64,000 nt of DNA from a bacterium (GTDB lineage: Bacteria > UBA10199 > 2-02-FULL-44-16 > JAAZCA01). The position numbers were made by a program, and so were the translations under genes. The notes under the pieces were generated by a model that saw only the letters and a program-made list of their open reading frames with translations, was not told the origin of the DNA and did no database searches. Below are positions 16,396-62,028 of this stretch, one piece after another; within the stretch, counting starts at the first letter, position 1, and the number at the start of each line of letters is the position of its first letter. The DNA is taken from assembly GCA_021810905.1 (NCBI GenBank), contig JAJZQH010000005.1, forward strand, positions 1-64,000. The letters run 5' to 3'.

Positions 16396-16574
16396 CGTTA
16401 ACCCCTTGGTATTAAACGCAATTTGGCATGACGGAGCAGTTTTTCACGCCCCGGCCGATCCCTTCATCATTGTTATCGGCAGGTCGGGGAAGAAGTTGTG
16501 GGGTTTATTGTCTGCCGTCCGTCGCGTGAGATAGCGGATAGACGATCCGCGGACGCGATGGACTCTCAGAAATT

Positions 16575-20580: not shown

Positions 20581-20700
20581 TTTCTTGATAACGATAAGTA
20601 TTTACGGCTAGACATATTTTTTTTCACAACTTTTTTCTATGGCTGCCGATAATGAAATATGACAAGGGCATGAGTACGAAATTATACGCTGGAGGAAGAT

Positions 20701-20964
20701 ATGATTATGAATCGAGATTCGATGTTACGTGAACTGCAAAAGACGATCGACGAGCTCTACAAATGTTGCGGGTGTACTTCCGATGTTGGCAGTGCCGACG
20801 AGCTGCCAAAGGTCAATGATGGCAGCGACCTCATGTGCGTGGATCCTTCCTCCCTCCCGCCCGAAGACCCGAACGATCTGGTGTGCATGGAGTTCATGAA
20901 ATCGCTCATGAATTCTTCTGAAATAATGTCGGAGTGGCGTTTGAAGTTACTGTCGAGAACGTAA
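20701..20964 (+). CDS. Small Cys-containing protein of unknown function
   Basis: This is an 87-residue acidic protein with a CCGC motif near residue 22 and two further Cys in repeated-looking segments (LMCVDPSSLPPEDPNDLVCMEF). There is no signal peptide or membrane helix. GGAGGA at 20691-20696 serves ATG 20701 or ATG 20707, and a terminator follows directly, so it is a credible small gene. The four Cys could bind a metal or form disulfides; that is a guess. Confidence 0.6.
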   Translation: MIMNRDSMLRELQKTIDELYKCCGCTSDVGSADELPKVNDGSDLMCVDPSSLPPEDPNDLVCMEFMKSLMNSSEIMSEWRLKLLSRT

Positions 20965-45305: not shown

Positions 45306-45333
45306 CTTATCGGTCGGCTGCTAAAATGGTTGC
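45306..45333 (-). promoter_or_regulatory. Shared promoter-like signal of giant gene 1
   Basis: The minus strand reads GCAAC (45333-45329), 17 bases, then GATAAG (45311-45306), preceded by C. The last base is 33 bases before ATG 45273, which leaves a leader of about 25 bases with GAGG. The same layout precedes the other cluster genes. Confidence 0.65.
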
Positions 45334-45371
45334 TATCTTTTTTTGACGGGCAGGGGCAAGGGAAATGCGCA

Positions 45372-48300
45372 TCAAACTAAGGTCGGGGAGACGAAGAGGG
45401 GCGCAAGTCCAGTAGTGGCAATAGTGTCAGCCGACAGCCCTTCTGCATCAACGCTCTCTTCGGCATCAGCGGCCTCATCCGCAGGCACGAACGTCGATTC
45501 GCCGCCTTCAATGATCACGTCTCCGCCACGAGATGGCGAGGAGAACTCCATCAAACCGCCCGTGATAACCGGGTGCCCGCCAATCGCGTGGCTCAGGTGA
45601 CGGCCTGTGGCCGGGAAGGGTGAGGCAGATGGCGTGGCGGGTGCAGCGGACGGCGGCGCGCCCGCGGGGCTAGCGGGCGCGGGCGCTGCCGGGACGCCGG
45701 GGATTCCGCCTTGTCCTTCATTGCCGCCGTTGCCTTTCTTCTCCGAACCTATCTGCTGCATTGTTTCATACAGCGTTTTGAGCGCTGATAATGTTTTCGA
45801 AGTATCCACTGATGGCAGGGCGCCGCTCGCGGGCAGCCACGGCGGCGTGGAGTCGCCGGTGAGCCATTGTAATCTCGTGATGCTGGTGTCACCCGCGAAT
45901 GGCTGCAGAAGGGCGGTGTGGATGCGTCGCAACATCGCGGGTTCGGTGAAGAGATCCACAAAACGTTCGCACAAGGCCTCTTCCCCTGACGATTCTATTT
46001 GATTCAGGAGATCCCCGAATCGTTGGGCCTCCGCGTCCGTGAGATCGGGTGCGATGAGGCCGAGCGTGACGTAAGCCTCCTTCAACTGAGGTATGAAATG
46101 TTGGAAGCCGAGGAGACACGCTGTCCACGTCCACCGGGTTTGATCCCTGGGGGTCTCCTTGCCGCTTGCCCAGCGCATGATTTTGAGGGCGCGCGCCTCG
46201 ATGATCCTGGAGAGAAACGGCGCCTTGATGCGCAGCCGCGCGGTCGGCGTCAGCCGATCCCAGGTGAGTCCGCCGTTCCATGGTTCATCGAGCCCGGTGA
46301 CGCGGCGCGCGAGCGTCATGCCCGGCTCGACCTCCTCCATGAGCGCCTCCCTGATCGGGCCCTCGGCGTACCGGTCATAGAGAGCCCTGAAGCGATCGAG
46401 GATCTCTTCCCTTTTTTCCATCGGATCGGATGCAATCATCGGCGTCTTTCTAGCTCCGACGATCGATTCAAGCTCCTGCCAGAACGATTCCGGAAGACGG
46501 CTCGATGCCATGCTGATGATGCAGATCGCATTGAAAAAACGCGGGAAGACATTCATCGCCCAGTTGACGATGCTCGACGCGCCCTTGCGCCGTGCATCAT
46601 CGTAGATCGCAAGTTTCACATCCGCTCCCAGCACGTGCGGCCCCGTCTCGGGGTGCGCAAGCGGCAGAAAAGGATCCTGACGTGAAAAGGTGATTTTTCG
46701 GAATACCGGACCGATCTGGTAAATATCGATTGCCGTCTCCTGCACCTCTTCAAGCGAGAGCGGAGGCTTCTGCCCTTCCGGCGTTCGCGCGATCGGGAGG
46801 AGGAGTTCAAAGAGCGCATTCTCCATGCAGGGATCGTGTTCTTTCATGGACTGATCGATGATCCACGCGAGGTCCGGATACTTCTGAGAGCTGAAGATTT
46901 CGTAAAGGAGACGGTTGAATGAGGCAGTCTCCGGATCATCGACGCCCACATCATGCGATCGAATGTCGTTTGAAGTATCGACCGCGGTCGCGCGCATCGC
47001 CCATTGCCCGGGAAAGAGATCAAACATGTTGCGCCCGGAAGATCTCTTCCATTTTCCGTTACCACGCGTGGCATCCTGCGTTGATTGCCCTGTGCAATAG
47101 TGAAAAATTTGACTCCAGTTGCTGTCCGTGCGGCCGATATCCACCATGGCGATTTCCGGGTGGCTCAGCAGTTCCGCATATTCGCGCGCCCGTTCGGCTT
47201 GATCTTTGGGCCCATAGGATGAGGGCGCGACCCGGGGGACGTAGGACGCTTGCGTCGCCGGGGTCTCTTCAGCGCGCGATGTCCGAGATATCGTCAGCCA
47301 CGGCGGCGTCGGATCGCCGGTGATCTTTTCCGTCCGCGTCACAAGGCGCGTGCCGTCATCGGACGGTTCTTTCTTTTCCAGCTCCTCGTAGATGATGCGG
47401 AGGTTGACGGGATCGGTCACCAGCTCCACGAGTTCGTTTTCAATCGTGGCATTATCGGAATTTGCACAGATGTCATTGAGTCTTGTGATCGCCGCGCGTT
47501 TCTCCGGCGTTGATCCGCCTTCGAAACAGGCCGTTGCGATGAACATGACACTTCTGAGTTCCGGGAAACTCCGAGCCACCGTTTGGAAATTTTCAAAGTG
47601 TTGGAGCTGAATCGAGTTGGCGCCGCTCGAGGCGATTTTGTCGTTGATCGCTGCGAGCGTCTCCTCGACCCACGATGACGTCACGCGCCCGAACACCGGC
47701 GCCTTCATTACGAGCCGCTGCATGGGCGTGAGGCGATCCCAGGTGAGCTCGCCCTTCCACGGTTCGTCGAGGCCGGTGAGGAGGCGCGCCCTGGTCAGGC
47801 CGGGTGCCAATTCCTCCCGGAGCATCTCCTGAATCCTCACGGCATACTTGTCATAGAGCTTACGGAAGAGCTGCCGGAACTCCTCCCGGTCGTACGACGC
47901 GCTCCGGGCGCTTTCTTCATGAAGCATACAGATGCCCGCGAACTCCTCCATGTAATCCTCGCCGATTGAGCTGCCAAGCAGGTCCAGTATGGCATAGACG
48001 CCTTCGAATTCAGGAAAGGTCCCTCTGAAGCTTGCGAGCATGCTCGCCGTGGGCAGCGCTGTGATGCGGGCCGCAGATTCCAGCAGCGCGATGGAATTCA
48101 CAAGCGCCGTCTCAGGATGCCGCCCCGCGAGTTCAGGGTCAGGGTCGCAGAAGATGCGTTCGAACTGTTTCACGAACTCAGGGTATTTTTTTGAGTGGAG
48201 AAAGACCTCGCGCGCGGTCTCCTGCGCCTCTTTGAGCGAATAGGACGGCGCTATGCCCGGGAGGGTGCGAGCGATCGGATCCAGGAGGCCTTGAAAGAAT

Positions 48301-51300
48301 TTGTCAATTGCCGGAGTCCGATGAGCGAACATCTGTTTGCTCGCATATCCAAGGTCCCTGAGATTCGGATTCGCGGCGATCTCCCGTACGAGTCGTCGTC
48401 CGGCCATTTCTTTGTAGCTGGACGAGAGAGTCGGAGGGCGTTCGAAATCCACAGTTGAGGGATCAGCGTCGTCGGGAAGAGATGTCGTCTTCCATTGCCC
48501 AGTGAGTGGATTGAATTCCCTGAATTCTGGCAATTCACGGAAACCGCACTGTCTGGCCTGATTGATGCTCTCCCGCGCCTGGAAGTAATCGACAGCCATT
48601 CTTACCGTGCGTCCGTTGCGAAGAGTAAAGACGACAACTCCGACTTCGGGATGTGACAGGAGTTGATCGCGGTAAGCCACCGACTTCGCATGCTCCTTCG
48701 GCGTATACGACGGCGGATAGATGTGTTCGATCTTCTTCCTTCCCTCCGCGGGCGCGCGATCGCTCGCTGCTGGTTTCTCGGCGGGGAAGAACTTCTCCGC
48801 GTCGGCTTCGCCTATGGCCGCGCAGAACGCCTGGCGATGCGCGAGGATCCAGCACCTGACCGCGGCGCGTGCGGAGGCGGAGTCACGGACCTCCGTGCGT
48901 GCGAGGGTTGCTGCGAGGTCCTGGAGAAGCGCCTCCGCTGCCGGCCTCCTGGCGAGCATCGAGATCGCGCGCGCCTCAGTGCACGAGCCGCCGAGCGCGA
49001 GGGAGAGATTCCGGACGAGCGCGAAGAGCGCGCTGGATTCCGGGAGCTCTCCTCGTGATACGAGCCGCGATCCGCGCTCTCCCTCCGCGAGCGTGAACGC
49101 GCGGCCGAAGAGGTCGAAGAGCACGATCGAGTTCACGCGGCCGGATTCGACCCACGCGTTGTAGCGCGCAGATTCGCTGCTGGAGATGAACCGCGATTGA
49201 CCTCTGAGCGGCATCGAGATGAGGCTGGCGGCGAGGACCGGCGCGAGCGCTCGCTGCGCCTCGGCGTGATATTTTCCAGATGAGCTCGCCTTGAGCGCCG
49301 CGTCGGCAGCTTCGTCGAGCTCTTCCTCCGGAATCGGATCCGGCATGGGTGCGTCGGGTGCGATCGTGAGCGCGGCCTCGGCGGCGGCGATCGCGGGCGC
49401 GATGCCGGCGGAGGCGGCGTTTATTCGTCCGATGAGCGCGTCGATTTCTTCGATGGTCGCCACCGCGTCCGTGATCGCCTTGTCAAGGGCTTGCCATGCT
49501 TCCGACAGTTCCTCTTTCCCTTCTTCCGAAAGCCCTTTGCCTGCTCCGCTGAGATCCGCGAGCGCCGTTCGAGCTGGAGACATGGTGAGGTTTATTCCTG
49601 ATTCGATCTTCTCATCTGATTTACCCAGGAGACGGTGAACTCTCTCGGCGAGAAAATCGGCGTGCCTCGTGAGCGTTTGGCTTTCTTCCTTCTGTTCCGC
49701 CACCTCATGCATCGCGGTGCGGAAGGCATCCGGAGTGATGTCGTTCTTACGCAGCTGATCGGAGACGGTCTTCGACCTGGTTTCGTGTACCTCCACCGCG
49801 GGGGCCAGAGACCTGGATTCGATGATCGCCGCGTCGATCTCCGTGGCCACGTCTTTCGCATTCTCGATGGCGGCGCGTGCCCGCTCAAGGGCTATGCGCT
49901 CTCGCTCTTCCGCGCGCAGCTTGTTGAGGCGGGTGGAAGCCGCGTCCTGCGTCTTGGTGATCGCTTCTTCCAGCGTCGTAAGATGTGCCCGCGCTCCTCC
50001 GAGTAATGTCTCTACGGCTTCGGCGGTCGTCTCGCCGGAACTCAAAACGCCCAACGATGTGATGAGTTGCCTTGCGCGCGCGGGCAGTGCCTCGGCTTCG
50101 CCCAGCTCCGTCTCGATATCCGCCATCGAGGCGTATCGGGCGTCGCATTCGCTGACGAACGTGGCGAGATCGATGATATTCATCGCCTGAATCGATGCGA
50201 GCATGGAGTCGATCGCGCCGTCCATGAGCCTCGTGCCGGTGCGCGTCACACGATCCCATCCCAGGAGGAGCTCCGCGGAGCGGCGTTCGATATCAGCGGC
50301 ACGCGCGGCGATTTTGTCGAGTTCGTCCCTGCGCTCGCGCACGAGTTTCAGAAACTCCTCCCGCGCCTGCGCTGCGTCGGCGGAATGGAAGAGTCGCGTT
50401 GCATGCCCCTCCACATTCTCGTACGCAGGCGAGCGCGGATAGAGGCCGCGCAGCAAACCGAGTTCCTCTTCCCGTGCGTGGAGCGCATCGAGCGACGGAG
50501 CGCCTTCCACGGACTGAATCGCACTGCCCATCAGCTCTTCCACGCTCATCGGTGGCGGAATTCCATCGATCGCCTCTTCGATCGCCGCGTGGATCGGCGC
50601 GAGTTCGCGCGCGATACGTACATCCTCCGCGCTCAACCATCGGTGCAATAAGGTGCGGTAATATGCAGCGAAGCGCTCGCGCACCTCAACTGAGGGAACG
50701 AATCCTGCGGGCTGCCCGATGATGGATGCCGCGATGGAATTGATGTCCGCGGGCGAGCTCGACGCGAGACGCGCCGCGAGATATTGAAGCGCGAATTCGC
50801 GAAGCTGCGAATCGCTCATGGCAGTCGCCTCGTAACCCTCGCGCACAAAGGCTGTGAAGCCGTGCTGCTGGTCGTCCACCATGCGTTCGAAGATCTCTCT
50901 TGCCCTCTCGGGCCGCATGAATCCTGAGAGGCCGGAAGAGGGGAGCAGTTTTCCATCCTCAGTCGATATCCCGGAGGCCGTGCGCTGAGAGTTGAACGCC
51001 TGCAGCCGAGCATACGCGAGAGCCAGCACTGTGAGCGGCCGCGCGTTCGCATCTGACTCGCATGCCGCGGCCACGCAGGACTTGAGCAGGTCCATGTCGA
51101 TCTCAACCCGCGCGTCGACGCCCCTTTCACGAGGCATGCCGTCGATGTAGCGGTTGAAGGCCTTGTCGGCGAGCTCGGTCTGGAGCGCGGCCGCCGCGTC
51201 CAGCGCGTTCGCCCGGCTCGCCATGCCGACGGCCGCGAAGAAGGATTGGATCGCCCGCTTGATCGGCTCAGGTGGCAAGCCGCCGCACCTCTGGCCGATC

Positions 51301-53924
51301 GCGCGGCCGAGCGCCTGGCCGTTGTAGTCCACGAGATAGGAGCGTGCGTTCTCGAAGTAGTCCATCATCGCGTCGACGGCCCTCTCCCGGGCGAGCATGG
51401 GCAGCCCTGCGCGCCCTGCGTGCGCCATCCACTGTTCGCGCCACGGGGGCGAGAGCCTGCGCAGCGGCAGCATCGGGCCTTTTTCGATGATCTCGCGAGC
51501 CGTGGAAGTATCGATGCCGTTGCGGGATACGGAGGGTGTCGCCGCGCCGACGTCCGCGGGAAGCGCCTCCGCCTCCATGCGGGCCAGGTCGCCTGCAGCC
51601 TGATCGAGCGCGGAGGCATCGCCTTGCCAGTACGGGCGCGCGGCTGCCGCGATGGCACCGGCGTTCGTGACGTCGCCCGGATTCAAGAGCCCGCTTCGAA
51701 ACACCTGGCCGACGATGATGCGCAACCTGATCGCGTCGCCGGCTCGCGCTCCTTGCCAGCCTTCGGCCTGTGCCCTGTCGAGGACGTCGTCGAGATAGAT
51801 CACCGTGGCGCTCTGCGTATCGAAATTCTGCCGCGCCCTTCTGAGCGCCGTGACAAAGGGGATGGCCCCGAGCGGTGTGGCGAGCTCAGCGTTTGCCTGA
51901 GACCAGAATATCACCTCTTCCGCGGCCTCGTGCAGCCGCGAGTAGAAACCGCGGATCGCTTCCTGGGGATGTGATGCGCCGCCGGGAATCCTGCGCACCG
52001 CGTCGTCATACTCCTGTTTTTTCTCCGCCGCGGATTCGAGCCGTGCGCCCATCTCTGCAGGCGAGAGCGACGATCCATTCGCGAGCGAAACGCGCACGCC
52101 GGAGATGCCGTCCACGCCTTCCAGATACGAATAGTGGTCGATCTGTCCGCGGGCGAGGGCCAGGCGCGCGTCATAGTATCCCCTGCGCACCTTCGGCTCG
52201 ATCTCGTCGCGCTTTTGATGCTCCGCCGTTGCGTATTTACGGGCGTCGCTTGCGGGCATGAGCGTCATGCGCGTGTCCGCCCGCTGTGCGGTCGGAACGG
52301 TCTTGTCGATCTCCCTGCCGGGCAAGGGATCCAATCTGTCCAGGACGGGAAAGACGCGGAAGAGGCCGGCTATCAGCAGGTAGAGATTGCGTTCAATCGT
52401 GGCCCTCTGCTCGGGTTTCTCTTCGCTCGCCATGGCCAGCGGTCCGACATATTGCCGGATCGTCGAATGCTCCGGATGTTCGACCCGTTTTTTAGCGTGT
52501 CCATCCACGGTGGATGGGTGCACGCCCGAGACAAAGGAGCCGTCCCACACCCTCTGCGCGAACGTGCTGAGCCCGAGGTTGGTCTCCGCATCGAGGCCGC
52601 CCAGGATCCTTTCCGGGAGATGAAATTGAACCGTCATGAAGTCAGCTGCGCCGAGCTTCTTTATCTCCTCATCCGTCAGCTCTTCCCGCACGAGCATCCT
52701 GCGCACCACCGGATAGATCGCGGCGAGGTAGTCCCAGAGATCCAGGGCCCTGCCCGGACTCTGCGAGCGGAGAAAGCTGTTGAGAAAGGTGTAGGCGTTG
52801 ACCACCGCGTTGACAGATGCTTCGCCACGCGCGGGCTCGATGCTCACGTCTTCCAGCTGATGATGACGCGCATGATAGTCGACGAGGAGATTCCAATCGG
52901 CACTGGAAATTTCATCGGGAAGGGCCTCGGCCGCAAGCTCCCGGAACATGCCGCGTTCGCGCGCGATGGCGATGCGCCCTTCCCAGACGTCGGCAGGGAC
53001 TGAGTGAGGGCGATGCGAGCGCAGCAGCGGCTCGATGCGCGATTCCTCGATCGCCTGATCCGCGAGCGCATTCCAGGTGCGCCTGATGCCGTCGGAGTCG
53101 GTGCGGGAGGGGGGCCTGCGTATCGAGCCCCATCTTGAAAACGCGTCGAAGGTGATGCCCGTGGTTTCGTAAAACTTGAGCTTGAACTGCTCGAAGGCCC
53201 TCGCGCCGCGCGGGATATCCATATCGCCGAGGAACGTGGAGAGGTCCGTTCCGCCGTAGGGCACGTAGCTACGGCCGTCGCGCGTCTGTTTCGGGAGTGC
53301 GTCGTAGCGCGCCCGCCATGCGGGATCGCTCTGCGCGGACGGCGACTTCTTTCGCGTGGTCGTCCTGCGCACAGCTTCCCTGGTGCCCACAAGTCCGAGC
53401 GTCTCCGCATGGTGTTCGATCAGCACGGTGAACGGCTTGATGAAGATGAATATCTCATTATCCCATTTGTCCACGCTCGAGTGCATGACGGCGGTATAGG
53501 CCTTGCGCAGGGCTTTTTTGATCTGAAGTTCGGTCGGCTTCACTCCGGGATCGGTCTTCGCGGGTTTGAAATCCGCTTGCAGGTTTTCAACGGCTTGCTC
53601 CAGGATCCTCAAGATCGTATTGCCGCCGATAGTCTTTGCTGTTTCCGATTTATTGAGGAGTTGAGCGACTATGCCCTGCCGCTCTTCGAGAAATGATTGG
53701 CGTGCGGGATCTATTGCAGGCAACGGCGGCGAGGTCCTCGCGGCGATGCTTTGCGGCGCTGCACCCGACCGAAGAGTCGAAGGCGGGGCTTCTTCGGCAT
53801 ACGAGTCCTCGTGCGCATCCGCGCCTGTTCCCTGAGGCGCGGCCGCAGGGCCTCGCTCGGGTGCATGTACAGGCGCATTGCCGCCCGCAGGCAGGCCTTC
53901 TCCTGGTGGTCTTATGCTTCCCAT
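45372..53924 (-). CDS. Giant protein 2 (2850 residues), cluster paralogue with two C-terminal modules
   Basis: This is an unrecognised family, paralogous to giant protein 1 over most of its length. Residues 1-75 are low complexity; 76-1300 are mainly helical; about 1300-1550 are Ala/Glu-rich helices. Residues about 1569-1713 are the shared domain (IVLFDLFGR, ELPESSALF, AAVRCWILAHR). Two tandem C-terminal modules follow, about 1734-2208 and 2233-2691. Both start with P-S-Y-x-P-K and HPE, carry LTGLDEPW and LTWDRLTP, and end TGDPTPPWL or TGDSTPPWL. The tail (2692-2850) is Pro/Ala-rich, then acidic. No signal peptide or catalytic motif is seen. The promoter at 53932-53959 ends eight bases before ATG 53924, so translation may be leaderless. 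Confidence 0.85.
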   Translation of the reverse strand: MGSIRPPGEGLPAGGNAPVHAPERGPAAAPQGTGADAHEDSYAEEAPPSTLRSGAAPQSIAARTSPPLPAIDPARQSFLEERQGIVAQLLNKSETAKTIGGNTILRILEQAVENLQADFKPAKTDPGVKPTELQIKKALRKAYTAVMHSSVDKWDNEIFIFIKPFTVLIEHHAETLGLVGTREAVRRTTTRKKSPSAQSDPAWRARYDALPKQTRDGRSYVPYGGTDLSTFLGDMDIPRGARAFEQFKLKFYETTGITFDAFSRWGSIRRPPSRTDSDGIRRTWNALADQAIEESRIEPLLRSHRPHSVPADVWEGRIAIARERGMFRELAAEALPDEISSADWNLLVDYHARHHQLEDVSIEPARGEASVNAVVNAYTFLNSFLRSQSPGRALDLWDYLAAIYPVVRRMLVREELTDEEIKKLGAADFMTVQFHLPERILGGLDAETNLGLSTFAQRVWDGSFVSGVHPSTVDGHAKKRVEHPEHSTIRQYVGPLAMASEEKPEQRATIERNLYLLIAGLFRVFPVLDRLDPLPGREIDKTVPTAQRADTRMTLMPASDARKYATAEHQKRDEIEPKVRRGYYDARLALARGQIDHYSYLEGVDGISGVRVSLANGSSLSPAEMGARLESAAEKKQEYDDAVRRIPGGASHPQEAIRGFYSRLHEAAEEVIFWSQANAELATPLGAIPFVTALRRARQNFDTQSATVIYLDDVLDRAQAEGWQGARAGDAIRLRIIVGQVFRSGLLNPGDVTNAGAIAAAARPYWQGDASALDQAAGDLARMEAEALPADVGAATPSVSRNGIDTSTAREIIEKGPMLPLRRLSPPWREQWMAHAGRAGLPMLARERAVDAMMDYFENARSYLVDYNGQALGRAIGQRCGGLPPEPIKRAIQSFFAAVGMASRANALDAAAALQTELADKAFNRYIDGMPRERGVDARVEIDMDLLKSCVAAACESDANARPLTVLALAYARLQAFNSQRTASGISTEDGKLLPSSGLSGFMRPERAREIFERMVDDQQHGFTAFVREGYEATAMSDSQLREFALQYLAARLASSSPADINSIAASIIGQPAGFVPSVEVRERFAAYYRTLLHRWLSAEDVRIARELAPIHAAIEEAIDGIPPPMSVEELMGSAIQSVEGAPSLDALHAREEELGLLRGLYPRSPAYENVEGHATRLFHSADAAQAREEFLKLVRERRDELDKIAARAADIERRSAELLLGWDRVTRTGTRLMDGAIDSMLASIQAMNIIDLATFVSECDARYASMADIETELGEAEALPARARQLITSLGVLSSGETTAEAVETLLGGARAHLTTLEEAITKTQDAASTRLNKLRAEERERIALERARAAIENAKDVATEIDAAIIESRSLAPAVEVHETRSKTVSDQLRKNDITPDAFRTAMHEVAEQKEESQTLTRHADFLAERVHRLLGKSDEKIESGINLTMSPARTALADLSGAGKGLSEEGKEELSEAWQALDKAITDAVATIEEIDALIGRINAASAGIAPAIAAAEAALTIAPDAPMPDPIPEEELDEAADAALKASSSGKYHAEAQRALAPVLAASLISMPLRGQSRFISSSESARYNAWVESGRVNSIVLFDLFGRAFTLAEGERGSRLVSRGELPESSALFALVRNLSLALGGSCTEARAISMLARRPAAEALLQDLAATLARTEVRDSASARAAVRCWILAHRQAFCAAIGEADAEKFFPAEKPAASDRAPAEGRKKIEHIYPPSYTPKEHAKSVAYRDQLLSHPEVGVVVFTLRNGRTVRMAVDYFQARESINQARQCGFRELPEFREFNPLTGQWKTTSLPDDADPSTVDFERPPTLSSSYKEMAGRRLVREIAANPNLRDLGYASKQMFAHRTPAIDKFFQGLLDPIARTLPGIAPSYSLKEAQETAREVFLHSKKYPEFVKQFERIFCDPDPELAGRHPETALVNSIALLESAARITALPTASMLASFRGTFPEFEGVYAILDLLGSSIGEDYMEEFAGICMLHEESARSASYDREEFRQLFRKLYDKYAVRIQEMLREELAPGLTRARLLTGLDEPWKGELTWDRLTPMQRLVMKAPVFGRVTSSWVEETLAAINDKIASSGANSIQLQHFENFQTVARSFPELRSVMFIATACFEGGSTPEKRAAITRLNDICANSDNATIENELVELVTDPVNLRIIYEELEKKEPSDDGTRLVTRTEKITGDPTPPWLTISRTSRAEETPATQASYVPRVAPSSYGPKDQAERAREYAELLSHPEIAMVDIGRTDSNWSQIFHYCTGQSTQDATRGNGKWKRSSGRNMFDLFPGQWAMRATAVDTSNDIRSHDVGVDDPETASFNRLLYEIFSSQKYPDLAWIIDQSMKEHDPCMENALFELLLPIARTPEGQKPPLSLEEVQETAIDIYQIGPVFRKITFSRQDPFLPLAHPETGPHVLGADVKLAIYDDARRKGASSIVNWAMNVFPRFFNAICIISMASSRLPESFWQELESIVGARKTPMIASDPMEKREEILDRFRALYDRYAEGPIREALMEEVEPGMTLARRVTGLDEPWNGGLTWDRLTPTARLRIKAPFLSRIIEARALKIMRWASGKETPRDQTRWTWTACLLGFQHFIPQLKEAYVTLGLIAPDLTDAEAQRFGDLLNQIESSGEEALCERFVDLFTEPAMLRRIHTALLQPFAGDTSITRLQWLTGDSTPPWLPASGALPSVDTSKTLSALKTLYETMQQIGSEKKGNGGNEGQGGIPGVPAAPAPASPAGAPPSAAPATPSASPFPATGRHLSHAIGGHPVITGGLMEFSSPSRGGDVIIEGGESTFVPADEAADAEESVDAEGLSADTIATTGLAPLFVSPTLV

Positions 53925-53931
53925 TCGTTTT

Positions 53932-53959
53932 CTTGTCGGCTCAAGTCATGGAAAGTTGC
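53932..53959 (-). promoter_or_regulatory. Shared promoter-like signal of giant gene 2
   Basis: GCAAC (53959-53955), 17 bases, GACAAG (53937-53932), preceded by C. Transcription would begin at or next to ATG 53924. There is no ribosome binding site between them, so a leaderless message is likely if this is the promoter. Confidence 0.65.
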
Positions 53960-53998
53960 TAGGAAATTTTACGGTATTTCACTCGAAATTTGCTGCCT

Positions 53999-56900
53999 TC
54001 ATCTCGCCGGTATGGTGCTGGACAAGGCGACGCTTGCGCCGCGGAGTTGCACATCGTCTTCGTCTTGTGACGTGCCCTCATCCGCTGCGGGATCGACGAT
54101 CGCATCAGGTGGGTCGGCCGGCCTCTGCGGCACGAGCATGTCCTCACTCGCAACATCAGTGGCCCCGATCTCCTCAAACAACGGCCTTGCATCCGCAGCT
54201 GGGAAATGCTGCCGCATCGCATTCGAGTCGCTCGTTGCCGGAGCCGCCGGGACCGTGAGATTCTCGCCGCTTTTGCCTCCGCTTTGGCCTGTTTTTGCAG
54301 GCGCTTTCGTCCGCTCGATGTAGTGCTTCGCTGCTTCCCCATCGCCCGCCATCAGGATGGCCTGGCGATGGGTTACGGCCCAGCGCCGCACGATGAGCCG
54401 CGAATGGTCGGCGTCAAGGGGCGATGGAGAGCGAGCCATCCACGCAAAGAGAGTGCGCAACAGCGCGCCGGGGGAGTTGGGATTGCGCTGCTCGATCGCC
54501 GCGCGCGACAGTTCTTTAGAGGAACCCGCCTTCATCATGAAGATGAGGAGGTCGGTCTCCTCGGAAAGATGTGAGATAGCGTTGGCAAGATGGACGAGCA
54601 GCGTTCTTAAGGGGTGCGCCTCCGGCAGCTCGTCGTGTTGCGCCAGCCTGACGCCGTATTCCCATTTTGGAAGAGGGATGAGGTTGCCGAAGATATCCAT
54701 AGCGATCAGATCTTTGCTTCTGTCCTTCATCCACCTTTGTACATTGTCGATCTGCGATCGTGAGAGCAGATAGCTCTCTTTTCGAAGAGTCAGCGACAGG
54801 ATGCGGCCATGCATGACCTGATCGAAGATCCTTCTTTGCGCATCCGTCAGCTCGCTCCCGGGAATCGACGGCTTGAACTCATAGGTCTCGCCGCTAGCTG
54901 GCTTGAGGCGAAGTTTCACGCGGGGGATTCTCGCCGCGTCGGCAATGGGCAGGCCCGATTCCGCCGCCATCAACGCGTTCTCGATCGCATTTAATGAGAG
55001 GCCCAGGCCGTCGATAAGATCGTCGATCTCGGTGCGGGCGCGGCGCGTCCTCCTGGACGCGCTTTCCAGACGGTCGATCGCCTGGAGGATCGGCGCTGCG
55101 AGCTCCGTCGAGAGACCTTGCATGGTTTCACAGAGTGCATCGTGTTGCACCCAGATCGGCGCCGGTATCGTGGAATCGCCGGATGCGTCGAGGACGGCGC
55201 CAGACGTTTTGTCGAATTCCCGGAGCCCGTTGCCCGTCTCCTCCGCGGATTTGAATTGAGTGTGCGCATCCAGCACCGCTCGTTCAAATGCGGCGACATC
55301 CGCGCCGATCAGCAGGATGGATGCCGCCATCAGGCGTCCGTTATCGGCCAGCATCACGGTCATCGCCTTGAGGGATTCGAATTCGGCGAGCTGGCTTGCC
55401 AGCTGCCCGCTGAGCTTTCCCGCCTCCTCGATCTCGATGCGAGCGCTGACCGGAAGCTCGGACGCGAAAGCCGCCTTCGACAAACTTTGAAGCCTCTCTT
55501 CGGAGATCGCGAGCGCGCTTTTCATGACGTGCTCCGCTTTGGTAAGCTTTTGATCGATGGCGGACAGGCGAGCCTTCGCCCTTTTGTTGAGCAGCCAGAC
55601 GCGAGCGCTGGCATCGGAGAAGATGAACGCGCTCTGGTTGGGAACGATCTGCGATCTCGCCAGTTCCAGTTCATCCGCGCTCTCTCGCAATTTTGCGATA
55701 TCGGCGAGGCCATAATACAATCCATCGATAAATGACGTGAGCTTTTCTCTGGTCATTGATGAGACCGCGGCTGTGATGCGGCTCAAGATATCATCGAGTC
55801 CCATCGCGTCAAAACTGGTGGAATCCCGAACGTCGCCGAGATCGACGTAGAGCGCGACGAGCTGGTCCGAGAGATCTTGGATGCGCTTTGAAACAACCAG
55901 GATGTCCCCACGTTCACGCGACATTCGCATTCCAAAGGCAGCGCGCGCCTTCCGTGCCTCCCTTGAATCAAAGGCGCGCTGCGCCTCTGCATGCAGGTCG
56001 AGTTCCTCCACATCGAGCCCAAGCATGCGCCTCGCGAGCGAGAGCCTCTCCGTGGCGACGAAGACGGCATGATCCGCAGCCAGGTTCGCCCTCCTGATAA
56101 TTTCGTCCGCGGAATGAGCGGGGCTGGCATCGCTCGTCGCTATCCGATGCAGTTTAAGCCTCGAGGTCTCTGCCTGCCCGGGGAGGGAGCCTATCAGCTC
56201 AATGAGCCAGTCAAGGAGGATGTTCAGGTGAAAGGCGACCATCTGATCCGCGAGTTCGGGGAAGTCGGCAACCGCCTCTTCCACGACGGCCCGCGCGAGC
56301 CAATCCACCGATAGCGGCGCATCATTGATGATGCGCTGGACGCCGTATTCAAGGGCCAGCGCGCTCAGGGCGGCGCGCGTTCTTGGCGAGAGCTCGAAGA
56401 TTTTCTCGGCGTACGTTCCGATGCCGAGTTCGTGATCCATGACCATGGCACGCCACAGGAGCGCATCACGGGTTGCTTGTCCGCTATCAGCTGCAGTGGG
56501 GAAGAGAGGGTCGCCGGGAAGAGCGCTTGCTGCGAGCGAGGCGGCGGACGCTCCGCGAGGGAATCCTCGATCCGTCATCTTTTCGTTGAATTGGAGAACG
56601 ATTCCTTTGCTCGAGTCGAACAGCTGCTCCCTGGTATGCGTATCAGCCAACGCACTTGCGAATTCCGCGCATTCGCTGCAATGAAGCCTCACCAGCCGCT
56701 GGATCAATTCATCTACCACAGGTACTGCGGAGCCATCGGATTTTCGTTGCGGAAAGAGGCGCAGATAATCCTCGGCTACCCTGGCGGACAACAGCGCGAT
56801 GAGCTCTGGGTTGCTGATCGGCCGTGAAGGATACTCCATCCGCTCGTTCTCTGCGCCGATCTGCGGCAGGAAAGCGATGATCGCCTTCAAGACCTGCGCC

Positions 56901-57313
56901 TCGGAAATTTCCTCGCGAAGAGCCGGCTCCAACGCCTTCATCCCTTTTTCGATGACGCTGGATAGCAGCCTGCTCCAGAGACGGTATGTGAATCCTCGGG
57001 CAATCACCAGATAATCCGCGAGCGCGCCTTCCACGAAATCAATATGACGTTCCTCGATATGATTTCTCCTGAGGTAGCTTCTCAACGGAGTTTTCCACCA
57101 CCCCGATGCCAGCGAGGTCGGGGAGTGCGACTTTTGAAATCCGTGCCTCTCGCCGGCTGTGGCTGCGCCTTCGTCGCTCGGCGCGGGAGGAATATAACAG
57201 TCCTGCTGAGGAGGACTTTGAAAAGGGCATCGCGGCTGCGCTCGATCGGTCGCCGGCAATTCGGCATTGCCACGCAGGCGCACGCTGCTTATCGGTCCTT
57301 GTATAGAAGACAT
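53999..57313 (-). CDS. Giant protein 3 (1104 residues), cluster paralogue without the C-terminal module
   Basis: This is the shorter paralogue. A Ser/Pro-rich N-terminus (MSSIQGPISSVRLRG) is followed by helical regions. Near residue 330-370, LALEYGVQRI and FPELADQMVAFHLNILLDWL align with giant protein 1 (FAIGYAAHRL; YPEIADMMAGNYRALFSRWL). A long helical part follows, then the shared domain at about 839-996 (DLIAMDIFGN, ELPEAHPLRTLL, RLIVRRWAVTHR). The tail is acidic, with no C-terminal module. No signal peptide is seen. The promoter-like signal (57340-57367) leaves a leader of about 20 bases with GAAGGG, rather far from the ATG. The next gene starts 74 bases after its stop. Confidence 0.82.
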   Translation of the reverse strand: MSSIQGPISSVRLRGNAELPATDRAQPRCPFQSPPQQDCYIPPAPSDEGAATAGERHGFQKSHSPTSLASGWWKTPLRSYLRRNHIEERHIDFVEGALADYLVIARGFTYRLWSRLLSSVIEKGMKALEPALREEISEAQVLKAIIAFLPQIGAENERMEYPSRPISNPELIALLSARVAEDYLRLFPQRKSDGSAVPVVDELIQRLVRLHCSECAEFASALADTHTREQLFDSSKGIVLQFNEKMTDRGFPRGASAASLAASALPGDPLFPTAADSGQATRDALLWRAMVMDHELGIGTYAEKIFELSPRTRAALSALALEYGVQRIINDAPLSVDWLARAVVEEAVADFPELADQMVAFHLNILLDWLIELIGSLPGQAETSRLKLHRIATSDASPAHSADEIIRRANLAADHAVFVATERLSLARRMLGLDVEELDLHAEAQRAFDSREARKARAAFGMRMSRERGDILVVSKRIQDLSDQLVALYVDLGDVRDSTSFDAMGLDDILSRITAAVSSMTREKLTSFIDGLYYGLADIAKLRESADELELARSQIVPNQSAFIFSDASARVWLLNKRAKARLSAIDQKLTKAEHVMKSALAISEERLQSLSKAAFASELPVSARIEIEEAGKLSGQLASQLAEFESLKAMTVMLADNGRLMAASILLIGADVAAFERAVLDAHTQFKSAEETGNGLREFDKTSGAVLDASGDSTIPAPIWVQHDALCETMQGLSTELAAPILQAIDRLESASRRTRRARTEIDDLIDGLGLSLNAIENALMAAESGLPIADAARIPRVKLRLKPASGETYEFKPSIPGSELTDAQRRIFDQVMHGRILSLTLRKESYLLSRSQIDNVQRWMKDRSKDLIAMDIFGNLIPLPKWEYGVRLAQHDELPEAHPLRTLLVHLANAISHLSEETDLLIFMMKAGSSKELSRAAIEQRNPNSPGALLRTLFAWMARSPSPLDADHSRLIVRRWAVTHRQAILMAGDGEAAKHYIERTKAPAKTGQSGGKSGENLTVPAAPATSDSNAMRQHFPAADARPLFEEIGATDVASEDMLVPQRPADPPDAIVDPAADEGTSQDEDDVQLRGASVALSSTIPAR

Positions 57314-57339
57314 GGAGGTTTCCGCCGCCCTTCTGCGCG

Positions 57340-57367
57340 TTGTCGATGATCGTAAATAACGTTTGCT
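57340..57367 (-). promoter_or_regulatory. Shared promoter-like signal of giant gene 3
   Basis: GCAAA (57367-57363), 17 bases, GACAAC (57345-57340), preceded by C. It is the weakest of the five matches (A for C in the upstream box, C at the last position), but with the same spacing and a TA before the upstream box as in three others. Confidence 0.55.
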
Positions 57368-57414
57368 ATCGCTATTTTATCCGACGTGGCAAGCAAAAGT
57401 TGCGCATGCCAAGG

Positions 57415-58632
57415 CTAATGCTGCATCAGCTGAGCGCCCAGCGCGATGTTCGCGGCTGTAAAATCGGCGCTTGCAGCGAATGGACCCGGCATGTCAGGCG
57501 TCTCGTCCATCGTAGCTTCCACGGCGTAATCGACCCCATCGTCAAAATAAACCGCGCGCGCAACCCTGGCGCGATCGAACTCATATGCGAGGATGTTGGT
57601 CGGCAGCGTGGGGGCCAGCACGCGGCATTGCAGAAAGATGTTCGCGAGCGAGTTCGCGACGTTGAGTATGGCGCTGCGGCCGCCGCCGGCTCCGCAACCG
57701 CGCACAGATAACACGGAGAGCAGCGCAAGGAAATTGCGCATCCTGAAGAGCTCGGCTGCAATTCCCCTGGTGGTATCGGTGGAGTCAAAGCTCCTGTCGG
57801 GATCGACCTGTGCAACGAGCGTCGGATCGGCTCCGCCGAACGAACTGCTCAGTATGCTTGAGTGCGCCGCCATCTCAAAAAACGGTATGCTCCCCTCGAT
57901 GCCGGGGATCGTGCCGAGCTCGCGCCGCATGCTGCTAAAATCCAGGGCGCTCGCGGATTCGTAGTACAGGGCAAGATACCCCATCTCAATGAAATCGGCG
58001 ATGTTGTGATGAGTGAATGCCCTGTTCCAATCGTAGGTCGGAAAGGCGAAGAGTGCGATCCGGGTCGGGTCGATTCCATGCAGGTTCTCGCGGTTTCGGA
58101 TGATCTCAGACGCTGTGCGCGTGTTGAGCCTCTCGGGAAATTCTATTCCCAGTTCGCGAAGGCGCATCACCATACGCGAATATTCCGTGCGCATATTTTC
58201 CGTTGGATTTTTTATGAGCGGAAGGACGTTGAAATTGAGTGCGAACGCCTCTTCGGCAAAGCCGCGATCCAGAGAGAGCGAATCGTGAGCATAATAATAC
58301 GCGCCGTGCCATCTTCCGATTGCGGCGAGTGTGATTTTCCGATCCTCCTTGAACTGGGGATCGACGTATCGATAGACGCGGCCGCAGCGCGCGACGGTCC
58401 TCTGCACGTAATCTCTGTTGAATCTCCTCTCGTCTCCCAGGAAGAGGCCCTCGAGATCCATATCCCCTGATATCGCGTAGTAGTCCTTCCACGCGGCTTG
58501 TGCGATACAAAGCTCTTCGGGCGTGCTGCAGAATTTCGCCGAAACGGCGACGCTCTGTCGCAGCCGATCCATGACGGAAATCCCTTCAGACCGTAGTTCA
58601 GGACGAGTAGATGTAGTTGCGATTGGCGGCAT
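57415..58632 (-). CDS. Cluster protein 4 (405 residues), unknown family
   Basis: I do not recognise this protein and see no convincing similarity to the three larger ones. It is mixed helical, with Tyr/Arg-rich segments (RWHGAYYYAHDSLSLDRGF, WNRAFTHHNIADFIEMGY) and a Gly-rich turn (SVRGCGAGGGRS). There is no signal peptide. ATG 58632 gives an N-terminus (MPPIATTSTRP) like the other cluster proteins, eight bases after the promoter-like box, thus leaderless. ATG 58572, with GAAGGGA upstream, would give 385 residues and a normal ribosome binding site. It is the first gene of the minus-strand cluster, 101 bases before giant gene 3. Confidence 0.72.
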   Translation of the reverse strand: MPPIATTSTRPELRSEGISVMDRLRQSVAVSAKFCSTPEELCIAQAAWKDYYAISGDMDLEGLFLGDERRFNRDYVQRTVARCGRVYRYVDPQFKEDRKITLAAIGRWHGAYYYAHDSLSLDRGFAEEAFALNFNVLPLIKNPTENMRTEYSRMVMRLRELGIEFPERLNTRTASEIIRNRENLHGIDPTRIALFAFPTYDWNRAFTHHNIADFIEMGYLALYYESASALDFSSMRRELGTIPGIEGSIPFFEMAAHSSILSSSFGGADPTLVAQVDPDRSFDSTDTTRGIAAELFRMRNFLALLSVLSVRGCGAGGGRSAILNVANSLANIFLQCRVLAPTLPTNILAYEFDRARVARAVYFDDGVDYAVEATMDETPDMPGPFAASADFTAANIALGAQLMQH

Positions 58633-58639
58633 TCACACC

Positions 58640-58667
58640 CTTATCGTCAGGATGCGCCGCGGGTTGC
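58640..58667 (-). promoter_or_regulatory. Shared promoter-like signal of cluster gene 4
   Basis: GCAAC (58667-58663), 17 bases, GATAAG (58645-58640), preceded by C. It precedes ATG 58632 by eight bases. An AT-rich block (GAAATATTTCTTTTTCT) lies directly upstream, which suits a promoter. Confidence 0.65.
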
Positions 58668-58733
58668 TAAGAAAAAGAAATATTTCAAAAATGACGTCAG
58701 ATACAGGTGCCAGGCAGCGATTGCCAGGCGCTC

Positions 58734-59957
58734 TTAAAACAAATCCCACGCGGAGATCAGTGCGGTATCATTCGCCAGCGGCGTATTCCTTTCGGTCGTA
58801 CAGATGATCCTCTTGAAACCGACGTTCAAACCTTTGAGCTTTTTGACCGCGGAGATGACATCGATGGACGGCGAACGCGCGAGCTTGATCTCAGCCGGCA
58901 GAAGCTTCGCCCCTTCATGGAGCAGATCGATTTCATCGCCGTCTTTCGTTCTCACGAAAAAGAGATTGGCATCGAGCCCGCGATGCCAAAAACTCTTGAT
59001 CGTTTCGGAAATCACCCATGTCTCGAAGAGCTTCCCGTTGAAGTGATGCTCCAACGCAGCTTCCCCATCGTGGATATTGAGCAGATACGAGAGAAGTCCG
59101 GTATCCAGAAAATATGCCTTCGGCGTCTTCACATACCTCTTCGTATGACCGCGGTAGTAGGGTCGCAACAGAAAGACCTGGTAGCTCCTCTCCATGACGG
59201 TCAGCCATTGGGCGATGGTCGGTTGTGTCACGCCAACCTCGCTGGCGAGGGCGTTGAGATTGAGGAGGTCGGCGCTGCGCACGGCCAGAAGCCTCATGAA
59301 TTTTTCAAACAAGCCCAAGTCTCTCACGCCGAGCTGACTTCGGACATCCCTCTCCAAATACGTCTGAATATAAGAGGAGTAAAAGGTTCTCCTGTCGAGA
59401 TCGGGATTCGTCCATATCTCCGGGCGATCGCCATTGACGATGAACCGAAAAATCTCGCTTAAAGTTCTCTTTGTCTCGAATGGCTCATCGACTGGAGCGA
59501 GGAGATACGGCGGGCGCTTGAACTCCTCATGAGCATCGTCGACCTCGGGCCTACTGAAGCCGAGCAGTTGAAGGATGGCCACACGGCCTGCGAGCGATTC
59601 GGAAACGTGCTCCATCATCGTGAAATTCTGCGAACCCGAGAGCCAATAATCACCGTTTGCGCTCCGCGCGCGCGTTCTCTTCTCATCGACGGCCATCTTG
59701 ATGTACGGCAGGATATTGGGCGCATATTGAAATTCGTCGATAAAGACCGGCGGCTGGAATTGATGAATAAATCCTTTCGGGTCCTCATTCGCAAATCGCC
59801 TCAATTGAAGATCATCGAGGGTGACAAAGGGGCGGTCTGGATCAAGCATTCTGAGGGTCGTCGTCTTTCCGGTCTGCCGGCTTCCCGTCAACATGACGAC
59901 CGGAAAGGTGTGTGTAGAATTGAGAATTATTTGTTCTATAAGCCTTTTCTTATACAT
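58734..59957 (-). CDS. AAA ATPase with DUF4143 C-terminal domain
   Basis: This 407-residue protein belongs to the AAA_14/DUF4143 family. The Walker A motif GSRQTGKTTTLRML, Walker B VFIDEFQYAPN and sensor-like WLSGSQNF are present. A winged-helix-like segment follows (LASEVGVTQPTIAQWLTVMERS), and the DUF4143 region ends with FVRTKDGDEIDLLHEGAKLLPAEIKLA, a nuclease-fold-like D-x-E-x-K pattern (DEIDLL...EIK). Roles are unproven, often in mobile or defence-like neighbourhoods. A sigma-70-type promoter lies seven bases upstream of ATG 59957. It separates the large-gene cluster from the divergent caspase-like gene. Confidence 0.88.
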   Translation of the reverse strand: MYKKRLIEQIILNSTHTFPVVMLTGSRQTGKTTTLRMLDPDRPFVTLDDLQLRRFANEDPKGFIHQFQPPVFIDEFQYAPNILPYIKMAVDEKRTRARSANGDYWLSGSQNFTMMEHVSESLAGRVAILQLLGFSRPEVDDAHEEFKRPPYLLAPVDEPFETKRTLSEIFRFIVNGDRPEIWTNPDLDRRTFYSSYIQTYLERDVRSQLGVRDLGLFEKFMRLLAVRSADLLNLNALASEVGVTQPTIAQWLTVMERSYQVFLLRPYYRGHTKRYVKTPKAYFLDTGLLSYLLNIHDGEAALEHHFNGKLFETWVISETIKSFWHRGLDANLFFVRTKDGDEIDLLHEGAKLLPAEIKLARSPSIDVISAVKKLKGLNVGFKRIICTTERNTPLANDTALISAWDLF

Positions 59958-59963
59958 ATGGCT

Positions 59964-59992
59964 ATTTTAAAGTAACAACTTGTTATTGTCAA
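59964..59992 (-). promoter_or_regulatory. Sigma-70-type promoter of the AAA/DUF4143 gene
   Basis: The minus strand reads TTGACA (59992-59987), 17 bases, TAAAAT (59969-59964). The -10 box ends seven bases before ATG 59957, so this message also appears leaderless. Confidence 0.75.
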
Positions 59993-60059
59993 AGTTATAT
60001 TTTGGAAAAAAAGGACGTCAATTCGCCATATGTATCGTTCTCTCTTTCGCTCAAACAGG

Positions 60060-60087
60060 GCAACTTCGTGTCGTTTCTGCCGATAAT
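60060..60087 (+). promoter_or_regulatory. Shared promoter-like signal of the caspase-like gene
   Basis: GCAAC (60060-60064), 17 bases, GATAAT (60082-60087), preceded by C. ATG 60094 follows seven bases after the downstream box. The match lies inside a frame that is open further upstream, so it could be a chance match in coding DNA if the protein begins earlier. Confidence 0.55.
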
Positions 60088-60093
60088 GAATAC

Positions 60094-62028
60094 ATGAGGC
60101 CTGTTGAGGCGTCTCGGCAGGGGGAGCGCGGCGGGGCTCGGGTCTCAACTGGGGAGGCGGAGAACGAGATGGGCGACGGAAGGGTCCAGCGATTTGCAGT
60201 CGTCATAGCAGGTACGGGACACGTCAACGATCTCGATCGCCTTGCGAGGGAAGGCTACGTCGTCTACGACGCTTCCGAAGGGGATTCGCGTGTCGCCCAT
60301 GCAAAACTCCACACTTCTTTTGATTCTGCCGGGGTCAACAAAATCGCGGATGCCCTTCTGGAGGCCAGGATCGATGATGATGACGAGCTGCTCATCTTCA
60401 CCTTTACGCACGGATCGAAAGAAACTATCTGTCTCAATGATGGATGCGTTCGATTCGATAACGACGCCTTCAAGAAACTCCTCTCCCTTCCGCATGGAAA
60501 GCGCACATTTGTCTTGAACCAATGCTTCAGTGGAAGCTGGATAAGGACGGCATCGGGGCCTCGCACTCTCTTCATGAGTTCCGGAACAGAGGACGAAGTG
60601 ACCTCCACTCGAGACCTCATCCATACCATTGTCAAACCGGACGAGGAGATAACGGACGCTGACCACAATGGCAGCGTCACGTGGCAGGAGCGATTCGGAC
60701 AATCGCTCATCAATGACTGGGGAGCGACGTCCACCTTTCTTGCTGGCGACGAATATGCCGACACGGGCATTGATGGAACGAGAGCGGAGCCTCCTCACTT
60801 TTCCACCTCCCTTCGTCGCGTGAGCACGGCGGATGATTACGAGAAAGAAATGGAAAACCTCCGGCCAGGAGACTTTGCCGTGGTCGCGGTGGATCCGTCC
60901 GCGGACTACGCGCAGAAGCTCGAGAGCCTCGCGAAAAAAACAGGCGGAAGAGCTCTCTTCATAGCCGTCTCCGGCATGAGCGCCGAAGACTCTCAGAAGG
61001 TGGATCTTCCTCCCGGCCAGGCGGTCTACGTCGTCGATTTTCGCGGGCTGAAGGCCGCCGTGGAGAACACGGCTGATCCGCTCAGCGAGCGTCCGAAGAT
61101 CTACGACGACATCGTCTCGCAGCGCGCTTACTGGGCCGACGGGATGTCCGTGCACCCGGATCTGACCAAAGGCCGCTTGCCAGAAAAATATGCTCAGGAT
61201 CCTTATTTTCGTCTCGACGTCGAACGCAGGGTGAGGCGATATTGGGCGAGGAAGATCGAAAAGGATCCGCAATTGAAATGGGATGCGATGCCGTTATGGC
61301 TTCTTGAGGATCAGACGTTCATTGCAAGGTACCGAGATGCGATAAAACGCTACTGGCTTCGTCTGAATCAGGACGAACCGCGATGGGCCTGGGAGAACAT
61401 GCCGACCTGGCTCCAAGGAGATCAGGAGATTGAGGCGACGTATCGAGACGCGATGAGACAGCGTTGGGAAAAGGCAGTCCCACCGTTTCGGGTGCATCTC
61501 CTGGATCTCTCGCTCGTTCGTTTCTGGAACATCGGCGCGCCCGATCATTCCATCAGCAGCACGGGCGTTGGAGGATCACTCGGTTTTTCGTTGTCACCTT
61601 TGCGCACTGGAACAGAGAGTTTGTCCACGCTGGGCATCTACGTCGGGGGCGTGGCAGCGATCAGTGGCGATGGGTCTGAAAGTTCTTCGGGCAGAGAGGA
61701 AATTTCGTTCCAGTACGCGGCGGCAAAATTAGGAATCCCTGGCGAGACCACGATCTCCGACCACCTGCTTTTCGGCGCGATGCCGTACGTGAGCGGAACG
61801 CACGTGAGCATGGAGAGGAACGATTTTACAGCAGGGAATGAAAAAATAAACTCCGAACGGATCTATTCCGGCAGCGCAGTAGCATGGGGCATCGACCTCT
61901 CGCTCAGATACTTTCTGCCACGGGAGGTCAGCAGCTACAACCTGGCCATCGGCTACGAGAGGATTGGCTCCCTGCGCGACGGGGGAAACATGCTGCGCGT
62001 GAGCATCGGGCCGCATCTGTCGTTCTAG
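60094..62028 (+). CDS. Caspase/legumain-like (clan CD) protease with 37-residue repeats and beta-barrel-like C-terminus
   Basis: From ATG 60094 this protein has 644 residues. A clan CD cysteine-protease domain is visible: FTFTHGSKE carries the catalytic His (106) and FVLNQCFSGSW the Cys (144). Three tandem 37-residue repeats follow (residues 344-454), with RYW at the start, P-x-WL in the middle and YRDA at the end. The last 190 residues are beta-rich, with alternating hydrophobics (GGSLGFSLSPL, LRYFLP, LRVSIGPHLSF) and a terminal Phe, like an outer-membrane barrel. The start is uncertain: the promoter-like box and N-terminal pattern support 60094, ATG 60169 has GGAGG-like sequence nearby, and a TTG near 59980 would add a signal-peptide-like segment. 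Confidence 0.75.
   Translation: MRPVEASRQGERGGARVSTGEAENEMGDGRVQRFAVVIAGTGHVNDLDRLAREGYVVYDASEGDSRVAHAKLHTSFDSAGVNKIADALLEARIDDDDELLIFTFTHGSKETICLNDGCVRFDNDAFKKLLSLPHGKRTFVLNQCFSGSWIRTASGPRTLFMSSGTEDEVTSTRDLIHTIVKPDEEITDADHNGSVTWQERFGQSLINDWGATSTFLAGDEYADTGIDGTRAEPPHFSTSLRRVSTADDYEKEMENLRPGDFAVVAVDPSADYAQKLESLAKKTGGRALFIAVSGMSAEDSQKVDLPPGQAVYVVDFRGLKAAVENTADPLSERPKIYDDIVSQRAYWADGMSVHPDLTKGRLPEKYAQDPYFRLDVERRVRRYWARKIEKDPQLKWDAMPLWLLEDQTFIARYRDAIKRYWLRLNQDEPRWAWENMPTWLQGDQEIEATYRDAMRQRWEKAVPPFRVHLLDLSLVRFWNIGAPDHSISSTGVGGSLGFSLSPLRTGTESLSTLGIYVGGVAAISGDGSESSSGREEISFQYAAAKLGIPGETTISDHLLFGAMPYVSGTHVSMERNDFTAGNEKINSERIYSGSAVAWGIDLSLRYFLPREVSSYNLAIGYERIGSLRDGGNMLRVSIGPHLSF

Follow-up and report, generated by a model that had tools for sequence, protein, structure and literature searches.

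The window analyzed here is a stretch of 64,000 nucleotides (contig JAJZQH010000005.1, positions 1 to 64,000) from a bacterial genome of 2.98 Mb in 21 contigs, G000. It carries a cluster of giant genes and a repeated two-box signal, GCAAC followed at a fixed distance by CGATAA or a close variant. A preliminary description of the window had placed five equally spaced copies of this signal ahead of three giant genes, a fourth gene of the cluster, and a divergent caspase-like gene. All five were located with exactly that spacing, and with the start codons chosen there the boxes end 33, 8, 26, 8, and 7 bases before the respective starts, as described. A search of the window for GCAAC-N17-GAYAA gave five matches where 0.11 would be expected by chance, and none of 100 shuffles reached five. 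Sites were scored with a matrix built from 91 genome-wide CGA-type sites, four strong sites of the window among them; the best score per window expected by chance has a median of 12 and a 95th percentile of 17.

The promoter of giant gene 1 lies on the minus strand at 45307 to 45333 (GCAACCATTTTAGCAGCCGACCGATAA; score, 29.1) and that of giant gene 2, on the same strand, at 53933 to 53959 (GCAACTTTCCATGACTTGAGCCGACAA; score, 29.8). Giant gene 1 (38404 to 45273, minus strand) encodes 2289 amino acids with no Pfam match over the cut-off, and giant gene 2 (45372 to 53924, minus strand) encodes 2850; the two products are homologous across some 800 residues. A module of about 50 amino acids in giant protein 1 (residues ~1761 to 1814) shares 80 to 90% identity with the products of two motif-driven genes on other contigs, L171 and L190, which suggests recent exchange of the module. 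Gene 4 (57415 to 58632, minus strand; 405 amino acids) contains a DUF4116 repeat and is preceded by a promoter at 58641 to 58667 on the same strand (GCAACCCGCGGCGCATCCTGACGATAA; score, 20.6). On the plus strand, a promoter at 60060 to 60086 (GCAACTTCGTGTCGTTTCTGCCGATAA; score, 25.0) precedes the caspase/legumain-like gene (60094 to 62028), whose product has a weak Peptidase_C13 match below the cut-off. Both of these genes have motif-driven paralogues elsewhere in the genome: gene 4 has the L187 protein, and the caspase-like product resembles the L181 protein. In three cases (giant gene 2, gene 4, and the caspase-like gene), transcription is predicted to begin at the chosen ATG or right beside it. 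Their mRNAs would then either lack a leader or be translated from a start codon farther downstream; for the caspase-like gene, the real start may be the ATG at 60169. An AAA_14/DUF4143 ATPase gene (58734 to 59957), itself not preceded by a motif, occupies the space between the last two of these genes.

Does the set of five hold up? Four of its genes have strong sites (20.6 to 29.8), and these stand. The fifth is doubtful: ahead of giant gene 3 (53999 to 57313, minus strand; 1104 amino acids, without a Pfam match), the GCAAA..CGACAA copy at 57340 to 57366 (minus strand) scores -0.8, which is not above chance. A second candidate, GCAAC..GGATAA, lies 37 bases farther upstream at 57377 to 57403 (minus strand) and scores 11.9, about the best chance score per window. 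The two do not overlap, both are weak, and the promoter and regulon membership of giant gene 3 are uncertain. The inventory had also overlooked two strong sites, both of an ACAAC variant that was left out of matrix construction. The first, at 16473 to 16499 on the minus strand (score, 33.5), precedes a gene for 666 amino acids (14395 to 16395, minus strand) whose N terminus, MPGTKSIS., is that of a family of tandem motif-driven genes on contig 3. The second, at 20626 to 20652 on the plus strand (score, 32.4), lies upstream of a small orphan gene of ~87 amino acids (20702 to 20964, plus strand).

How far does the signal extend beyond the window? The genome-wide scan that the preliminary description had proposed returned 98 sites against 7 for the same pattern read backward, not the comparable frequency at random positions that would mark a chance motif, and the hits concentrate at gene starts. 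The surroundings of all 98 sites were inspected: of the 91 CGA-type sites, 82 are no more than 80 bp away from where an open reading frame (ORF) of at least 60 amino acids begins, and a few sites lie inside ORFs on either strand. Motif counts were controlled with the backward-read pattern, with other spacer lengths, and with a second phylum, Myxococcota. The first does not preserve dinucleotides and is not sufficient by itself, and spacing is therefore the better control: strict GCAAC-N16-CGATAA occurs 85 times in G000, and spacers of 10 to 15 and 19 to 22 bases occur 0 to 6 times each among the matches listed. Spacers of 17 and 18 bases are likewise raised (at least 11 sites each) and look like real variants. 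It is true that the motif is short and that a few sites fall within ORFs, but the low window expectation and the strong genome-wide preference for one spacing and one position make an artefact of chance or of coding sequence extremely improbable.

The full consensus consists of an A/T run, then GCAACTTTTT-N9-GCCGATAA, then a purine 8 bases past the box. Several of these features were not set by the search pattern, including a T run after GCAAC and a G and a C ahead of CGATAA. A or T occupies positions -7 to -5 before GCAAC in 97 to 99% of the G000 sites. The base directly 5' of GCAAC is A or C in 98% (C in 69%, A in 29%), so the TA that had been described before the upstream box is not a general feature of the promoter. 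The purine is present at 83% of G000 sites and at 88% in six relatives, with a pyrimidine commoner just before it, and a purine at a fixed distance from the box is the trace expected of transcription starting at a fixed distance.

The motif is also a property of the phylum, which is probably UBA10199 of GTDB. It is present in all 46 genomes of the phylum set, at a median density of 15.8 per Mb. The corresponding median for the Myxococcota, computed from 144 rows of a 146-genome sample, is about 20-fold lower, at 0.7 per Mb; three of these genomes exceed the phylum minimum. The repeated signal is a real promoter, used about 100 times in G000 and throughout the phylum. Strong support for the earlier proposal of a single regulon under an alternative sigma factor comes from the genome-wide motif, its position at gene starts, its spacing, the fixed-distance purine, and conservation across the phylum. 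Raised strict-motif counts were seen in the Myxococcota genomes G101 (59 in 6.3 Mb), G097 (44 in 6.4 Mb), and G088 (25 in 4.0 Mb), which may have an expanded regulon too. The phylum's sigma factor, described below, is also present in a public metagenome-assembled genome titled “Nitrospira sp.” (L109; SBBF01000105.1) that has 35 sites of the motif and whose label looks wrong.

What kind of sigma factor would read such a promoter? In flagellar sigma-28 promoters, 15 bases separate TAAA from the -10 box, that is, TAAA-N15-GCCGATAA. Placed in register with that arrangement, the motif has the same -10 box and the same distance, and it differs at -35, where GCAA(C) replaces TAAA; the published flagellar consensus is TAAA / GCCGATAA (PMC8325347). 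The likeness of the CGATAA box to sigma-28 promoters with a different -35 had been recognized from the window, and it holds genome-wide.

G000 encodes six sigma-70-type proteins, one of which is clearly FliA/WhiG-like. Its gene lies outside the window, on contig 15 (207435 to 208355). The product scores 137 to 138 bits against TIGR02479, below the curated cut-off of 189.6, with a match that covers the whole FliA_WhiG model (positions 1 to 219 of 224). Its closest solved structures are 6pfv/6pfj, which we take to be a WhiG, followed by the FliA entries 9wsm, 6pmi, and 1rp3. Orthologues are found in 42 of the 46 phylum genomes, and in most of them this is the only FliA-like sigma factor; G043 and G044 each have, in addition, another member of this type that has diverged further. 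Membership in FliA/WhiG itself was considered and rejected, as the score lies below the curated cut-off, the -35 box is not TAAA, and FlgM control was not found.

The location of this gene is informative. It lies between sctJ and sctI-fliG-sctL-sctN, genes of a type III secretion system (T3SS), and the order is the same in all the relatives' loci that reach far enough. SctR exceeds the non-flagellar cut-off (yscR, 238.6 versus 208.6) and falls under that of FliP (201.5 versus 217.45). SctN passes the cut-offs of both III_secr_ATP and FliI_clade2, and SctJ, at 136.5, is under its cut-off of 161.95, yet SctJ is its best-scoring family. Compared with FliA, the sigma factor has kept the segment around RI.G.I.D.LR....PR, and its region 4.2 helix has been rewritten, with KSWTSRLHARA for ESRVSQIHSQA. 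From sigma factor structure it is established that the former segment reads the -10 box and the region 4.2 helix the -35 box. An unchanged -10 and a changed -35 are therefore what would be expected of this protein.

These properties bear on two other explanations. The preliminary description had leaned toward an extracytoplasmic function (ECF) sigma factor, since GCAAC looks like the AAC core found in ECF -35 elements, and G000 does have one small ECF-like sigma factor (L035). The -10 box and the spacing are of the sigma-28 type, though, nor did any ECF protein appear to follow the motif from genome to genome within the phylum, so that an ECF regulon is very unlikely; as the reader, an ECF protein, a type that has regions 2 and 4 only, was ruled out by the sigma-28 -10 box together with the candidate's full FliA_WhiG domain span. 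Could the regulon instead be an ordinary flagellar one? Its -10 box and spacing do equal those of flagellar promoters (PMC8325347), but no FliA of G000 exceeds the curated cut-off, and FlgM is missing. Only a few phylum members have true FliA and FlgM, encoded by separate genes, whereas the motif occurs in all, and outside G025 TAAA-N15-GCCGATAA hardly occurs. In a sigma tree built without three mistranslated Myxococcaceae rows, the true FliAs of three members, which score only 60 to 70 bits with the candidate as query, form a separate, well-supported branch. This explanation appears even less probable than the ECF one.

A counterpart in the Myxococcaceae speaks for a pairing of the sigma factor with the boxes. 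There, an orthologue with 34 to 42% identity adjoins sctI, sctJ, sctL, and sctN, and its region 4.2 helix, SKSWASRLHARA, is nearly identical. In 13 of 14 Myxococcaceae loci, GCAAC-N16-CGA(T/G/A)AA lies ~80 to 105 bp upstream of the operon's first gene; between subgroups the boxes are kept and the spacer varies. A promoter in this position suggests self-amplification. Another match overlaps coding sequence at the 3' end of the sigma gene and was left out of the count. The Myxococcaceae sigma factors (L117 to L130) are without a W.PR segment following DGLR, and the conserved GC ahead of CGATAA is missing from their sites; there may be a connection between these losses. Myxococcus xanthus cannot lyse its prey without a T3SS-like machine (PMC12075869). 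Orthologous operon genes, an orthologous sigma factor, and the same boxes before the operon liken the phylum's system to this “needleless” T3SS* and to the early-branching Myxo non-flagellar T3SS (PMC12075869, PMC3459982), with the equivalence of the loci read here to the mxan_2434-2464 cluster a candidate one only. Neither paper mentions a sigma factor. In contrast to the phylum, the Myxococcaceae genomes with the operon have only few motif sites rather than dozens.

What, then, does the regulon encode? Eighty of its products and 80 neighbouring control genes were compared by Pfam, with 18 families matched in the former and 174 in the latter. Regulon products of G000 have only 2.6 lysines plus arginines in their first 40 residues (5.0 in controls), and their N termini are enriched in acidic residues, serine, and proline (net charge, P = 1.5e-15). 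Just 6 of 82 products have a Sec-like N terminus. Uncleaved, charge-poor N termini and the absence of a Sec signal are general traits of type III substrates. Seven homologous pairings, covering six G000 genes, connect motif-driven genes of G000 with those of other genera. Among them, a lipoprotein of ~1,070 residues (L189; L260 in G005; L267 in G007) is 55 to 58% identical across three genera, with the same promoter in each, and is a candidate core part of the system. Within G000, the motif-bearing genes of a tandem run in L140 and L141 (contig 3:51883-72523) have near-identical promoters and first ~70 residues (MPGTKSISEV.) and divergent bodies.

Taken together, we consider it probable that the motif is the promoter of the FliA/WhiG-like sigma factor of the T3SS operon, with its rewritten -35 helix, and that the genes it drives are mainly cargo or partners of that system. 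The two halves of this proposal differ in strength. From sequence, the T3SS-operon sigma factor is the most likely reader of the motif; that the ~100 driven genes, the giant and caspase-like genes included, are mainly substrates or partners of that T3SS is what we infer more weakly.

Several observations weigh against the proposal. Start codons were taken from the longest ORF, which makes gene-start positions approximate. SctU, SctV, a needle protein, and a secretin were not located in the stretch of the operon that was read, no search having been aimed at the secretin, needle, or translocon. FlgM is present in 4 of the 46 phylum genomes, G000 not among them, and no anti-sigma factor was found. 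A matrix search of the phylum's own T3SS operon generally found no motif, and four of the 46 genomes (G006, G024, G025, and G041) have the motif with no T3SS sigma factor in the assembly. In three of these four there is no FliP/SctR either, and G025 has only a flagellar-type copy, near a true FliA. Summed over the 46 genomes, the stated incompleteness predicts ~3.7 absences, enough to explain the four, although this is unproven.

The missing sigma genes and the mostly motif-free operon would suit an alternative in which the regulon is real and is read by one of the five other sigma factors of G000, or in which the motif is a -10 box combined with an activator site. We regard this as unlikely. 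The -10 box is that of the FliA clade, of which the T3SS sigma factor is the sole representative in most genomes, and the Myxococcaceae operon site accompanies the same sigma helix. The other recurrent sigma factors are an RpoD relative and an RpoH-like protein, neither of which is expected to read GCCGATAA, and the spacing and initiator are typical of a sigma factor promoter.

The remaining points against the proposal concern the cargo. In relatives, depletion of lysine and arginine is weaker (3.6 versus 5.0; P = 0.006), and part of the regulon consists of lipoproteins or Sec-exported proteins, which figure among the most conserved targets, with lipoprotein-like starts commoner in relatives. 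Might the sigma factor and promoter be right and the regulon a general surface or lifestyle set? This is somewhat unlikely, as the G000 products are mostly orphans without Sec signals and with strongly charge-poor N termini.

If the regulon does consist mainly of T3SS cargo, how might it operate? The phylum's secretion operon would be transcribed by other means, yielding machine and sigma factor together. The sigma factor would then initiate at the scattered GCAAC/GCCGATAA promoters, with the purine 8 bases downstream as the probable initiation point, and so switch on T3SS cargo much as FliA switches on late flagellar genes. By flagellar analogy, it would perhaps stay inactive as long as the machine is unfinished. 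A plausible use, which is speculation, would be delivery to prey or host cells. A bolder form of the idea, in which a non-flagellar T3SS operon captured a FliA-clade sigma factor that then gained a new -35 code and came to act throughout the phylum as master switch for a large cargo set, nearly all of it uncharacterized, with its activity tied to completion of the machine by an anti-sigma checkpoint like that of FliA and FlgM, is possible and tentative, short of an even chance.

Parts of this arrangement have precedents: control of a T3SS by an ECF sigma factor is known from HrpL, and sigma factors of the FliA clade act outside flagella in the case of WhiG and in Chlamydia. The FliA late-gene system and WhiG resemble the present one in sigma clade by profile, in the -10 box GCCGATAA, and in spacing, and the flagellar system also in that the sigma factor is made with a type III export machine and its targets are scattered over the genome. 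They differ in that here the -35 box is GCAAC, not TAAA, the sigma factor scores below the cut-off on a branch of its own, there is no FlgM, the sigma gene lies in a non-flagellar T3SS operon, and the targets are mostly orphan genes. HrpL of plant-associated bacteria reads the hrp box, GGAACC-N15/16-CCAC. It too is a T3SS-cluster sigma factor with scattered effector genes and a bipartite promoter; unlike the present one, which is FliA-like and has a sigma-28 -10 box, it is of the ECF type. Chlamydia has a T3SS and no flagella, and is thus another case of sigma-28 in T3SS-bearing bacteria without flagella. To our knowledge, no comparable link to a T3SS operon exists there. Its sigma-28 targets hctB and tsp have been compared with the standard sigma-28 consensus (PMC12282069). 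In the open-licence literature, no report was found of a FliA-type sigma factor that has a -35 code of its own and is encoded inside a non-flagellar T3SS operon.

If the proposal is true, the effectors of each uncultured member could be listed from the promoter alone. Sequence by itself would then give access to the likely secreted arsenal across an uncultured phylum in which most such proteins are without a known family. A sigma factor that has retained the flagellar -10 code and changed its -35 code would also be a natural experiment on the evolution of promoter specificity. The Myxococcaceae, as tractable predators, are subject to a direct prediction, given a sigma gene beside sctI and a promoter before the operon.

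The sites with longer spacers have some features of their own. Those with 17 or 18 bases (L276 to L294; for example, L276, L285, and L287) are upstream of orphan ORFs, and their spacers often start with TTTG or TTCG and contain C-rich stretches. The 18-base class is often without an A/T run before GCAAC. Spacer composition possibly compensates for spacer length.
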